From a virus, in IMG/VR virus record IMGVR_UViG_3300030012_002942, positions 1 to 52,286 of that record: a stretch of DNA of 52,286 bases; one strand, 5' to 3'. Position 1 is the stretch's first letter. The number at the start of each line of letters is the position of its first letter. A program made the position numbers and the translations under genes. Of this stretch, positions 28,786 to 46,090 are shown piece after piece. The notes beneath the pieces are model-generated. The model worked only from the letters and a program-made list of their open reading frames with translations, was not told where the DNA came from and made no database searches.

Positions 28786-30039
28786 ATGGCTAACGACACA
28801 TTCAGGCAAGTCCCCAGAACAGGGGTGGTATACGTTGTACAAGAGGCATCCAAACTAGGTTTTTACAGAGGTAATCCAGATTGGGTAAACTTTGGTCAAG
28901 GTCAACCACAAACTGATTTCATTGAAGGCGGCGTAGAGAGAATACACAACATTCCAGTAGTCGATGCTGACAACGAATACGCCCCTGTTTCGGGACTCCC
29001 TGAATTACGGGAAGCAATAGCAAATTATTATAATGAAACTTTCCGCAAGAACAAGAAATCAAAATATACAGCCAAAAACGTTTCTGTCGTATCAGGCGGT
29101 AGGCTCGCCTTAGCAAGACTGGCTGCTTCCTTGGGGAATATTAATCTTGGACACTTTGTTCCAGATTACACTGCCTACGAAGAACTGCTTTCTACATTTA
29201 ATCGCTTCAATCCCATTCCGATTCTGCTTGATCCTGAGAAGGGTTATGCTTTCACAACAGAGGACCTTAAAAGAGAGGTCCACGGACGAGGCTTGGGAGC
29301 CGTACTGGTTTCTAACCCTTGTAATCCCACTGGCAAAACTATTAAAGGCTCTGCCCTGCGTGATTGGGTGAAGATCGGTCGTGAGTTTGACTGCTACATG
29401 TTGATGGATGAGTTCTATAGCTCTTATGTTTATTCTGGGTTGCGTTTAGACGAGACACTCAGCGCCGCCAAATATGTTAAAGATGTGAACGAGGACCCAG
29501 TGGTCATCCTAGATGGTGCGACCAAAAACTGGCGTTATCCTGGCTGGCGTATTTCTTGGATCGTCGGACCCGAGCATGTCATTGAGAGCGTCACCAGTGC
29601 GGGCAGCTTTCTTGACGGCGGTGCTTGCCGTCCAGCCCAACGAGCCATCGTCCCATTGTTGGAGCCAGCCAAGATGAAGCAGGAGACTGCTGCCCTCAAA
29701 GCAAACTTCAGGGAAAAAAGAAGAATAATGTTAGACGGTCTACAGAAGATCGGCGTGACCTTTGAGCGTGAACCTGATGGAGCTTTCTATGCCTGGGGGA
29801 ATGTGTCAGCATTGCCAGAAGGAATCAATAACGGTATGAAGTTCTTCCGAGCCGCTCTCGAAGAGCAGGTCATTGTCGTTCCTGGTGAGTTCTTCGATGT
29901 GAATCCAGGCAAGCGTCGGGGCAAGTCATCTTCACGTTTTGACCAGCACCTGAGATTTTCTTATGGTCCCGATATTGAGATTATCAAAGAAGGAATAAAA
30001 AGGCTCCAAAAGGTAGCAAGCAATTGCACAAAGACTTGA
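28786..30039 (+). CDS. PLP-dependent aminotransferase, class I/II
   Basis: The 417-residue protein has the fold-type I aminotransferase signs: NEYAPVSGLPELREAIANYY, SNPCNPTGK, MDEFYSSYVY and the PLP-lysine segment DGATKNWRYPGWRISW. The C-terminal RFSYGPDIE is the usual Arg strand. It moves amino groups between amino acids and keto acids; substrate is unknown. Such genes are rare in phages; here it sits between dUTPase and a sigma-70-like promoter and could supply a modified-base pathway or host metabolism. Confidence 0.87.
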   Translation: MANDTFRQVPRTGVVYVVQEASKLGFYRGNPDWVNFGQGQPQTDFIEGGVERIHNIPVVDADNEYAPVSGLPELREAIANYYNETFRKNKKSKYTAKNVSVVSGGRLALARLAASLGNINLGHFVPDYTAYEELLSTFNRFNPIPILLDPEKGYAFTTEDLKREVHGRGLGAVLVSNPCNPTGKTIKGSALRDWVKIGREFDCYMLMDEFYSSYVYSGLRLDETLSAAKYVKDVNEDPVVILDGATKNWRYPGWRISWIVGPEHVIESVTSAGSFLDGGACRPAQRAIVPLLEPAKMKQETAALKANFREKRRIMLDGLQKIGVTFEREPDGAFYAWGNVSALPEGINNGMKFFRAALEEQVIVVPGEFFDVNPGKRRGKSSSRFDQHLRFSYGPDIEIIKEGIKRLQKVASNCTKT

Positions 30040-30063
30040 CATACTGTTCGCCTGTGGTAATAT
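30036..30063 (+). promoter_or_regulatory. Promoter before the SH3-like/restriction-modification cluster
   Basis: TTGACA at 30036-30041, 16 bases, TAATAT at 30058-30063, with TGTGG just before the -10. Consensus -35. The first gene starts at 30081. Confidence 0.75.
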
Positions 30064-30725: not shown

Positions 30726-31244
30726 ATGGCTGGAGGAATTCAACCTGGAACCACGGCATGGGATAGTCAGTCACTAAAGCACGACAAGGTTGTCCGCTTA
30801 GCTTCAAAGGAAGCAGAGAAAATTCTTCAAGAAAGGTACCCTGGGATCGCACGCCACAATAAGGTAGACAAAGATTCATTGCCAACTGGCTTTGGTGCTT
30901 GTTCTCCCGATGGTGGTGTCTGGTATTATCAAGATAAGCTAATCGCTGCATTTGAAGCCAAAAAGCAGGGACCTCGTGGAAATGCGATTGAGCGTTGGTA
31001 TAAGAACTATTTCTTGATTAAGGAAATCAATGATCGCTGCCCGCTAGTGACTTATGCTATTGGCGAGGGTGTCCGCTACGGCAACCCGATTCACGTCATA
31101 CTGCATGCAGCACACAGAGGACAATATAATACTTTCCGCTCAGACGGTCCATCTTGCTTTCTTGATGAAGAGGGCTTTACATTTGAAGAGATTAGAGATA
31201 ATATTGTTGAGTTCATTGAAGGCGAGATAAAACAATATGACTAA
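30726..31244 (+). CDS. EcoRI-like type II restriction endonuclease
   Basis: The 172-residue protein carries the EcoRI catalytic and recognition blocks: SPDGGV at 60-65 (EcoRI Asp91), FEAKKQG at 76-82 (Glu111, Lys113) and GNAIERWYKN at 85-94 (EcoRI GNAIERSHKN at 140-149, including Asn141, Ala142, Glu144, Arg145, Lys148). EcoRI cuts GAATTC; keeping these residues suggests an AATT-centred site. It is shorter than EcoRI (277). Its stop overlaps an adenine methyltransferase start by eight bases, the classic order of a restriction-modification pair. Confidence 0.82.
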   Translation: MAGGIQPGTTAWDSQSLKHDKVVRLASKEAEKILQERYPGIARHNKVDKDSLPTGFGACSPDGGVWYYQDKLIAAFEAKKQGPRGNAIERWYKNYFLIKEINDRCPLVTYAIGEGVRYGNPIHVILHAAHRGQYNTFRSDGPSCFLDEEGFTFEEIRDNIVEFIEGEIKQYD

Positions 31245-32163
31245 ACCTCTTTATATGTGGGCTGGCGGTAAGACCCGTATGCTGAAGAAGTATGCTGACT
31301 TGCTTGAGGGCGTATCCTTCGATCGATATGTTGAGCCTTTCTTTGGCGGTGGTGCAATGTTTATCTGGGCGTACCAGCAGAATCCTGATGCTGAGTTTAT
31401 TATTAATGATATCAACTCTGGGATTATGAACATTTACACTGCTATTAAAGATGACTGTGATAACTTCACCAAAGTTATGGATATTCTATCAAAAGAGTAT
31501 TTATCACTCCCTAAGGGTGAGACTGACAAGTCATTTGAAAATGAGCACGAAAAGAATTGGGATAAGTTGTATCGCCTCCGCCCGTGCCGCCGATACTTCT
31601 ATTTCAATCTTCGGCAGAAGCATGCCTACGAATATCAGGACTGGGGCGCAACGAAAGAGGCTGCTGTTTTATATTTCTTGATGAAAACAGGCTTTAATGG
31701 CTTGTGGCAAGAAAACAAAAATACCAACGGTCGCTTTGGTACTCCTGCTGGCTTACTGAATCAAAAAGATAAAGTCTATGATAAAGAAGTCGTTGAGTGG
31801 TGGCACACCGCCTTACAGAAGTGTACAATCCTCAGTGACGACTTCGAAGCAACAAAAGAATATATTAACTCTGATACTTTCCTCTTTATGGATCCTCCTT
31901 ATCGAGACAGTTTCACTCAGTACGAGACTGACTTCAATGACGACGAACAGAAACGTGTAATCAGTTTGTTGAAGGTTTGCCAGGGTCACGGTGGAACAGG
32001 GTGGCTCTCAAACAGAGATGCTGGCGACGGCTTTTTCGAAGAGAACGCATCAGAGTTTGCAATGCATAAGTTCCCTGTGACTTATACCGCAGGAAGAAGA
32101 AAGAAAGTCGATGATGGCTTTGAGGCTAAAAAAGCCACCGAAATTCTTTTGGTAACAAAATAA
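31237..32163 (+). CDS. DNA adenine-N6 methyltransferase, D12 class (Dam-like)
   Basis: The 308-residue protein has the D12-class blocks: YMWAGGKTRM at 6-15 (SAM-binding), YVEPFFGGGAMF at 31-42, INDIN at 56-60 and FMDPPYRDSF at 217-226 (the DPPY catalytic motif). Family members methylate adenine in GATC or similar sites. It follows and overlaps the EcoRI-like gene, so it could protect GAATTC, although M.EcoRI itself is of another class. It is also possibly an orphan methyltransferase. Confidence 0.88.
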   Translation: MTKPLYMWAGGKTRMLKKYADLLEGVSFDRYVEPFFGGGAMFIWAYQQNPDAEFIINDINSGIMNIYTAIKDDCDNFTKVMDILSKEYLSLPKGETDKSFENEHEKNWDKLYRLRPCRRYFYFNLRQKHAYEYQDWGATKEAAVLYFLMKTGFNGLWQENKNTNGRFGTPAGLLNQKDKVYDKEVVEWWHTALQKCTILSDDFEATKEYINSDTFLFMDPPYRDSFTQYETDFNDDEQKRVISLLKVCQGHGGTGWLSNRDAGDGFFEENASEFAMHKFPVTYTAGRRKKVDDGFEAKKATEILLVTK

Positions 32164-32182: not shown

Positions 32183-32210
32183 TTGACCTGTGCTCTCCTC
32201 ATGGTAATAT
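32183..32210 (+). promoter_or_regulatory. Promoter after the methyltransferase gene
   Basis: TTGACC at 32183-32188 and TAATAT at 32205-32210, 16 bases apart, with ATGG before the -10. It drives the second group of tiny genes. Confidence 0.7.
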
Positions 32211-45169: not shown

Positions 45170-46090
45170 GTGAGAGCCGACCCTTTTGAGAGATTTAAAG
45201 ATCTAAAAGATAATCACTGCTGGCAGTATGAAGTAAGGTTACGGAACACTGAAGCAGACCTAGAGGAACTAGGGAAGTCGGCGTCTTGGGCAGAAAAGCT
45301 CAGGACTGCCGACTTTTACTTTTCCTATGTGGACAAGACGAACAAGGAAGAGTGCACCGAGATCAAGGCTTTTATCGAGCGTCATGAGTTTCTTGGCATT
45401 CTTCCTAACCGTCCAACTCACAGGTTCACAGCCCGGCTCAAGGATACAAACACTTTGGCAGGTGTCATCGTGATGGCAACTCCTAATGCTTTTAGTCACT
45501 TGTTGGGCAAAGAAAATAAAAACATCATAAAGCTAGTATCAAGAGGAGCTTCAATTAGTTGGGCTCCAAAGAACCTAGGGTCTTGGCTGTTGTCACGAGC
45601 CTGCAAGTGGATGGTTCAGAACACAGAGTTCAGAGCCTTTGAGGCATACAGTGATCCACTAGCTAAAGAGCTAGGAACAATCTATCAAGCGTTGAACTGG
45701 AACTACCTAGGACAAACATCAGGAACTGCGAAAGTATACAGAGATCCAAACGCCCTTGAAAAGGGTTGGTTCAGCGACCGAGAGTTTCGCAAGAAATCAA
45801 AGTATCGACGCTATGCTGAAGCAGTGGGCATATCTTATGAGGAATGGAAAAAATACTTAGGTAAGTACACTCCTAAATGGGATGAAATGCCTTCTGGTCT
45901 AAAGGATAAGATCAAAGAACAAGAGCGTCTTTTCCGAGACAGTTGCGACTGCCGAGTGGTACCAGCAAAACACAAGTACTGCTACATTTTGGGCAGATCA
46001 AAAAAAGAAACTAAACACTTGAGAAATTTGTTTGTACAATGTAATCCTAAACGGGCAAACCTCCCGTATCCAAAAGAAAGAGGGGAATAG
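45170..46090 (+). CDS. Mom-like / GNAT-fold DNA modification candidate
   Basis: GTG start at 45170. The region FTARLKDTNTLAGVIVMATP, then ISWAPKNLGSWLLSRA and FEAYSDPLAKELGTIYQALNW matches proteins annotated as Mom-family, which in phage Mu change adenine to a carbamoylmethyl form and block restriction. They have a GNAT-like fold. The C-terminal third is basic, with KYCYILGRSKKE. It sits directly before groEL. Assignment is by motif memory; activity unproven. Confidence 0.6.
   Translation: MRADPFERFKDLKDNHCWQYEVRLRNTEADLEELGKSASWAEKLRTADFYFSYVDKTNKEECTEIKAFIERHEFLGILPNRPTHRFTARLKDTNTLAGVIVMATPNAFSHLLGKENKNIIKLVSRGASISWAPKNLGSWLLSRACKWMVQNTEFRAFEAYSDPLAKELGTIYQALNWNYLGQTSGTAKVYRDPNALEKGWFSDREFRKKSKYRRYAEAVGISYEEWKKYLGKYTPKWDEMPSGLKDKIKEQERLFRDSCDCRVVPAKHKYCYILGRSKKETKHLRNLFVQCNPKRANLPYPKERGE

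Follow-up and report, generated by a model that had tools for sequence, protein, structure and literature searches.

The window, as the whole analysed stretch of 52,286 bases is called here, is an IMG/VR viral fragment of a marine phage. The locus is surrounded by genes for a DnaE-type DNA polymerase, a dUTPase, a ribonucleotide reductase, a UvsX-like recombinase and a DnaB-like helicase, together with tail proteins, FtsH and GroEL, a gene content that makes a lytic lifestyle plausible. The best named matches of the DnaE protein had an identity of only ~30 %; a close named relative of this phage was not present. The locus itself consists of a gene for a predicted restriction endonuclease (R), which starts with ATG behind a GGAG, and a gene for an adenine methyltransferase (M) (Table 1). 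Both open reading frames and their overlap were located exactly where a preliminary description of this DNA had placed them. R was assigned to phrog_2400, a group listed with "unknown function" (E = 1.2e-38). M matched the Pfam model PF02086 (E = 2.8e-32, 112.9 bits at a cut-off of 22), which confirmed the D12 class named before, and had the DpnII methylase and Dam as relatives in the PDB. A promoter-like site is situated upstream of a close-packed gene series (30081, 30301, 30518, R and M), three short genes running straight into R, and could serve this gene run through R and M. A second, similar match was present after M (32183-32210); the strict form of the pattern did not recur elsewhere. 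Directly ahead of the GroEL gene, the region 45170-46087 matched phrog_1384, a Mom-like DNA modification protein (E = 5e-19), possibly a second DNA-modifying function of the same phage.

Table 1. Features of the R-M locus in the window. A2 is a profile of 50 R-family sequences; fractions refer to distinct R homologues.
Feature	Position	Strand	Basis
Promoter-like TTGACA-16-TAATAT	30036..30063	+	consensus match only
R, EcoRI-like PD-(D/E)xK restriction endonuclease (predicted), 172 aa	30726..31244	+	homology to EcoRI
Catalytic Pro61-Asp62 of R (EcoRI Pro90-Asp91)	30906..30911	+	invariant in A2; 72/72
Catalytic Glu77-x-Lys79-Lys-Gln81 of R (EcoRI Glu111-x-Lys113-x-Gln115)	30954..30968	+	E, K, K, Q invariant in A2; 72/72
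GNAIER recognition block of R (EcoRI Gly140-Arg145)	30978..30995	+	GNA.ER 72/72
Shared 8 bases, end of R and start of M	31237..31244	+	sequence
M, D12-class N6-adenine DNA methyltransferase, 308 aa	31237..32163	+	PF02086
NGLWQ of M, Gln158 (Dam, DpnII methylases: Arg, NGLCR, NGLYR)	31696..31710	+	alignment position
DPPY catalytic motif IV of M, residues 219-222	31891..31902	+	motif

The preliminary description had recognized an EcoRI-like endonuclease by the catalytic Asp, Glu and Lys and the block GNAIER--KN in a smaller protein. These motifs were found in R of the window as S-P61-D62-G-G, E77-A-K79-K-Q81, G85-N-A-I-E-R90 and K93-N94. One hundred forty-two homologue loci were fetched, some of them the same contig twice, presenting 72 distinct R proteins. 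PD, ExKxQ and GNAxER were kept in all 72, and P61, D62, E77 and K79 were invariant in the 50 members of the profile A2. A search of the PDB with this profile revealed EcoRI chains as best match (E = 0.0034), while the sole other listed entry had an E-value of 1.5. The alignment of the R family to five EcoRI-family proteins with hhalign obtained a probability of 97.1 % and a score of 76.4, compared to a maximum of 21.6 in 200 column-shuffled controls; leaving out the Paracoccus member lowered the score to 63.0, and EcoRI as the only partner gave 49.0. By these profile comparisons, R is homologous to EcoRI, as had been proposed. The family has to be seen as a divergent branch rather than a textbook member, since the Pfam EcoRI model (PF02963) was matched weakly by five of the 50 members (best E = 0.027) and not at all by R of the window. 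A single-sequence search of the PDB with R yielded chance matches to viral nucleoproteins only. The AlphaFold2 model of R was confident (pLDDT 87, pTM 0.83) with a suitable order of elements, H-E-E-E-H-E-H-E-H. Its best Foldseek match in the PDB was weak, the restriction enzyme BsaWI (E = 0.041, prob 0.63), and no match reached E <= 0.001. Searches of genome contigs and plasmids with R of the window and with A2 yielded no relatives, thus bacterial members were not detected at that search sensitivity.

EcoRI reads the central part of its site with few residues: Ala142 acts as a wedge between the central base pairs, and bonds to the A-T pairs are made by Arg145, Asn141 and Ala142 (PMC4081073). 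All three AATT-reading residues, Asn141, Ala142 and Arg145, have invariant counterparts in the phage proteins. The spacer from KxQ to GNAxER measured 3 residues in all 72 phage proteins versus 24 in EcoRI, hence a 21-residue EcoRI segment ahead of the AATT-reading residues is absent from R. Both genes are, by their substitution pattern, under strong purifying selection. Compared to the 87 % identical L001, R of the window had a dN of 0.084 and a dS of about 1.85 (dN/dS about 0.05), and for M and its L001 partner a dN of 0.044 and a dS of 1.28 were obtained (dN/dS about 0.03); the ratios are rough because dS is near saturation.

The operon form of a restriction-modification (R-M) system, noted for the window beforehand, is a trait of the whole family. 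A D12 gene was located within 60 bases of R in 45 of the 72 distinct homologues and beyond an insert of 0.9-1.5 kb in another 13, while in 12 no D12 gene occurred within at least 2 kb; two contigs ended too early. R and D12 genes were therefore linked in 58 of 70 evaluable cases. On a 190-kb contig with both genes unlinked (G005), a related D12 gene was present elsewhere. The distances among R proteins and among methylases were correlated (Mantel r 0.80), a value reached in none of 2000 permutations. A search of relatives for the same pair, suggested in the preliminary description, revealed it in two phages of Synechococcus, S-RIM2 and S-BM1; the window phage is not its only carrier. In many, not all, S-RIM2 strains, R and M are separated by a DUF6551-like gene (L003, 5614-6669). 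The pairing with a D12 enzyme had been called unusual. The difference in class is real, M.EcoRI being a PF13651 methylase, but the pairing is conserved across the phage family and occurs on a Paracoccus plasmid too.

The Dam and DpnII methylases touch the guanine of GATC with an arginine. All 51 distinct R-linked methylases had glutamine in its place, hence M is presumably not a GATC enzyme. The motif NGxWQ was considered as a mark of R-linked methylases alone, and failed as such: ACG-2014f, MA01 and Mydo have the motif, and R was not found in their genomes. S-WAM2 gp213 (L094, 942-1508), a 188-aa protein of unknown function whose gene precedes a D12 methylase gene with an 8-base overlap, was rejected as a member, as it did not match the R family; it might be a restriction enzyme of another kind. 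The contig G060 (L360, ORF 1504-2010) encoded an R-like protein that is very divergent (ADGG, ENK, QNACER), overlapping a D12 methylase 52 % identical to M of the window, with an adenylosuccinate synthetase-like neighbour (assigned by eye); AATT was undepleted there (0.91-0.95).

Tetranucleotide counts were compared to Markov expectations, at first in a few phages, then for the full set of 136 strand-collapsed tetramers after removal of the R-M region; 78 T4-like cyanophage loci, picked by the major capsid protein, served as background. The median ratio of observed to expected AATT was 0.43 in 59 carriers of R versus 0.95 in the background, and 46 of the 59 fell below the lowest background value. 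AATT was the most carrier-depleted of all 136 tetramers (AUC 0.033, p about 1e-20, a p-value that ignores relatedness, the carriers being phylogenetically non-independent). A GC-matched subset gave 0.45 for carriers and 0.88 for the background. Some carriers had lost little AATT, with ratios up to 1.09. A search for R in 26 longer background records found none; it included no positive control, though the same query matched elsewhere. Among DnaE relatives, the window (0.51) and L001 (0.37) were below the range of 0.59-0.99 of 26 close relatives in which R was not seen, some of them not long enough to cover the R site.

Low AATT values were also observed in DnaE relatives whose fragments contained no detected R (L313, 0.23; L308 and L347-L349, 0.30-0.40). 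Here R could lie off the contig, or another cause such as a host enzyme could act; judged by the available fragments, the expectation that R is carried by every relative poor in AATT did not hold. Other tetramers were scarce as well: the 52 kb of the window contained no CGCG (62 expected) and only 8 GGCC (124 expected), and CATG was low, which indicates other site-avoidance pressures on this phage. GATC was strongly depleted (0.23-0.34) in the T4-like cyanophages S-RS29 (L168, L169), L225, L232, L234, L267, L269 and L275; S-RS29 has a Dam-type methylase with the GATC-type arginine.

The loss of AATT was complete in three related contigs that carry R (G009, G010 and G011; 74-112 kb), here counted as one event. 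Neither a D12 nor another N6/N4 methylase was found on these contigs, which may be incomplete. G010 contained no AATT over its full 111,864 bases (339 expected), nor did the 57,883 and 57,000 bases read of G009 and G011 (175 and 168 expected), in total 227 kb without a single site. An active AATT nuclease would impose such a loss on an unprotected carrier. CCGG was likewise wholly absent (154 expected in G010) and was missing from several background cyanophage loci, thus a complete tetramer loss can have other causes; a separate CCGG-specific pressure on these phages is suggested. Tentatively, and with somewhat more doubt than confidence, we consider that some cyanophages possess the nuclease without any methylase, in a genome purged of every AATT and protected by sequence alone. 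If so, a methylase-free R would represent a host-DNA-degrading enzyme for lytic phages, replacing the denA/denB strategy of T4, which relies on modified cytosine.

The homology to EcoRI, the intact active-site and recognition motifs, the purifying selection, the linkage and co-divergence of both genes and the carriage-linked depletion of AATT are best read together: R and M very probably form a type II R-M pair of the phage, specific for AATT, that attacks host or rival DNA, the carrier being spared by methylation or site loss. R, presumably a dimer, would cut double-stranded DNA at unmethylated AATT, and M would methylate the adenine within the same site. In addition, the phage genome would shed AATT sites in the course of evolution. 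AATT is frequent in ordinary DNA, hence the enzyme would thoroughly fragment an unmethylated genome. As AATT is depleted even in carriers with M, the protection by methylation seems imperfect, e.g., while new DNA is still unmethylated. Production of R during infection would break the host chromosome, supply nucleotides and stop host genes; co-infecting phages may be cut as well. The weapon with self-protection predicted by the preliminary description is supported in that the loss of AATT tracks the carriage of R, from which we infer the activity.

The main target of such a pair may be other phages, an alternative that we regard as possible but distinctly less likely: the AATT pair would be functional and directed primarily at co-infecting phages, to exclude or harm them, rather than at breaking down the host chromosome. 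In the unselected T4-like cyanophages, AATT is about as common as expected (median 0.95), and these phages would be cut; the lack of strong AATT avoidance among rivals speaks against this alternative. The known viral systems point in both directions. The GATC-specific R-M system of marseillevirus leaves the host DNA undegraded, and its authors point to interactions during co-infection (PMC7253447), whereas chloroviruses package their restriction enzymes, which are considered to degrade host DNA and offer no explanation for mutual exclusion (PMC7019647). Cyanomyoviruses are devoid of the T4 genes denA, ndd and denB, which leaves the role of the host-DNA nucleases denA and denB vacant, and a review allows that they degrade host DNA in a way not yet described (PMC2984593). 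Host DNA is in our judgement about twice as likely a target of R as rival phages.

The preliminary description had expected cutting and methylation at GAATTC. The block GNAIER is common to R and EcoRI, the reader of GAATTC, yet a functional pair reading this or another longer AATT-centred site is improbable. NAATTN hexamers showed no flank preference in the carriers, and every NAATTN context had disappeared from G009-G011. GAATTC itself was not depleted in the window, with 7 sites seen for 5.9 expected (1.19), and R lacks most of the stretch that links the active site to GNAIER in EcoRI. These results point to AATT, not GAATTC, as the predicted site of R.

A similarly small chance is given to an explanation that separates the two genes, with M as an anti-restriction methylase, R as a nuclease for repair, packaging or homing, and the AATT loss caused by a host restriction system which the carriers share. 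Phages do use orphan D12 methylases, and AATT was depleted in some contigs without a detected R. On the other hand, AATT ranked first of the 136 tetramers in its association with R carriage, the AATT-reading residues of EcoRI are kept in R, R and M are adjacent and diverged together, and AATT was absent where R was found without M. Finally, R-M pairs can behave as selfish addiction modules, kept because their loss exposes unprotected DNA to residual R, but this is very improbable here, as a lytic phage kills its cell and leaves little for post-segregational killing to act on, and AATT-free phages retain R although M was not detected in them.

The R family is a concrete candidate for the host DNA breakdown of cyanomyoviruses, in those that carry it, and the occurrence in the cultured phages S-RIM2 and S-BM1 renders this directly testable. 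The loss of target sites in the weapon's own carrier is a measurable genomic footprint that gives the specificity of the nuclease. A PHROG of unknown function gains a likely function, and a very small EcoRI relative is described. Virus-encoded type II R-M systems are already known. Searches of open-access literature revealed neither an EcoRI-like R-M system encoded by a phage nor AATT avoidance in cyanophages; no account of the compact EcoRI-like/D12 family of tailed phages, its footprint and the apparent methylase-free variant was encountered there.

Among the known systems, EcoRI (PF02963) shares with R the PD...ExKxQ active site, the GNAxER--KN block, the order of elements and an adenine methylase as partner. 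It differs in size (277 versus 172 residues), with much of its C-terminal part absent from R, in the longer gap between KxQ and GNAxER, in the methylase class (PF13651 versus D12) and in the site, GAATTC versus the predicted AATT; R resides in phages. An enzyme on a plasmid of Paracoccus marcusii (NZ_CP065909.1) is an EcoRI-family member (E = 2.5e-16) that is also shortened before GNAIER and has a D12 partner. It differs from the phage pair in length (238 aa), the methylase gene in first position, the plasmid location and a methylase not closely similar to M. MunI and MluCI are AATT-centred enzymes as well. They resemble R in the AATT core of the site, predicted for R, and are bacterial. EcoRI, MunI and MluCI have been cited as one possible instance of mosaicism (PMC4081073). 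Chlorovirus and marseillevirus R-M systems are likewise virus-encoded pairs of nuclease and methylase with short sites (PMC7019647, PMC7253447), but belong to eukaryotic viruses. Closest to the window are SWTG_00030 of S-RIM2 and SBM1_00185 of S-BM1 (phrog_2400): annotated as hypothetical proteins and not as nucleases, and 42-43 % identical to R of the window, they belong to the same family and have a D12 gene as neighbour.
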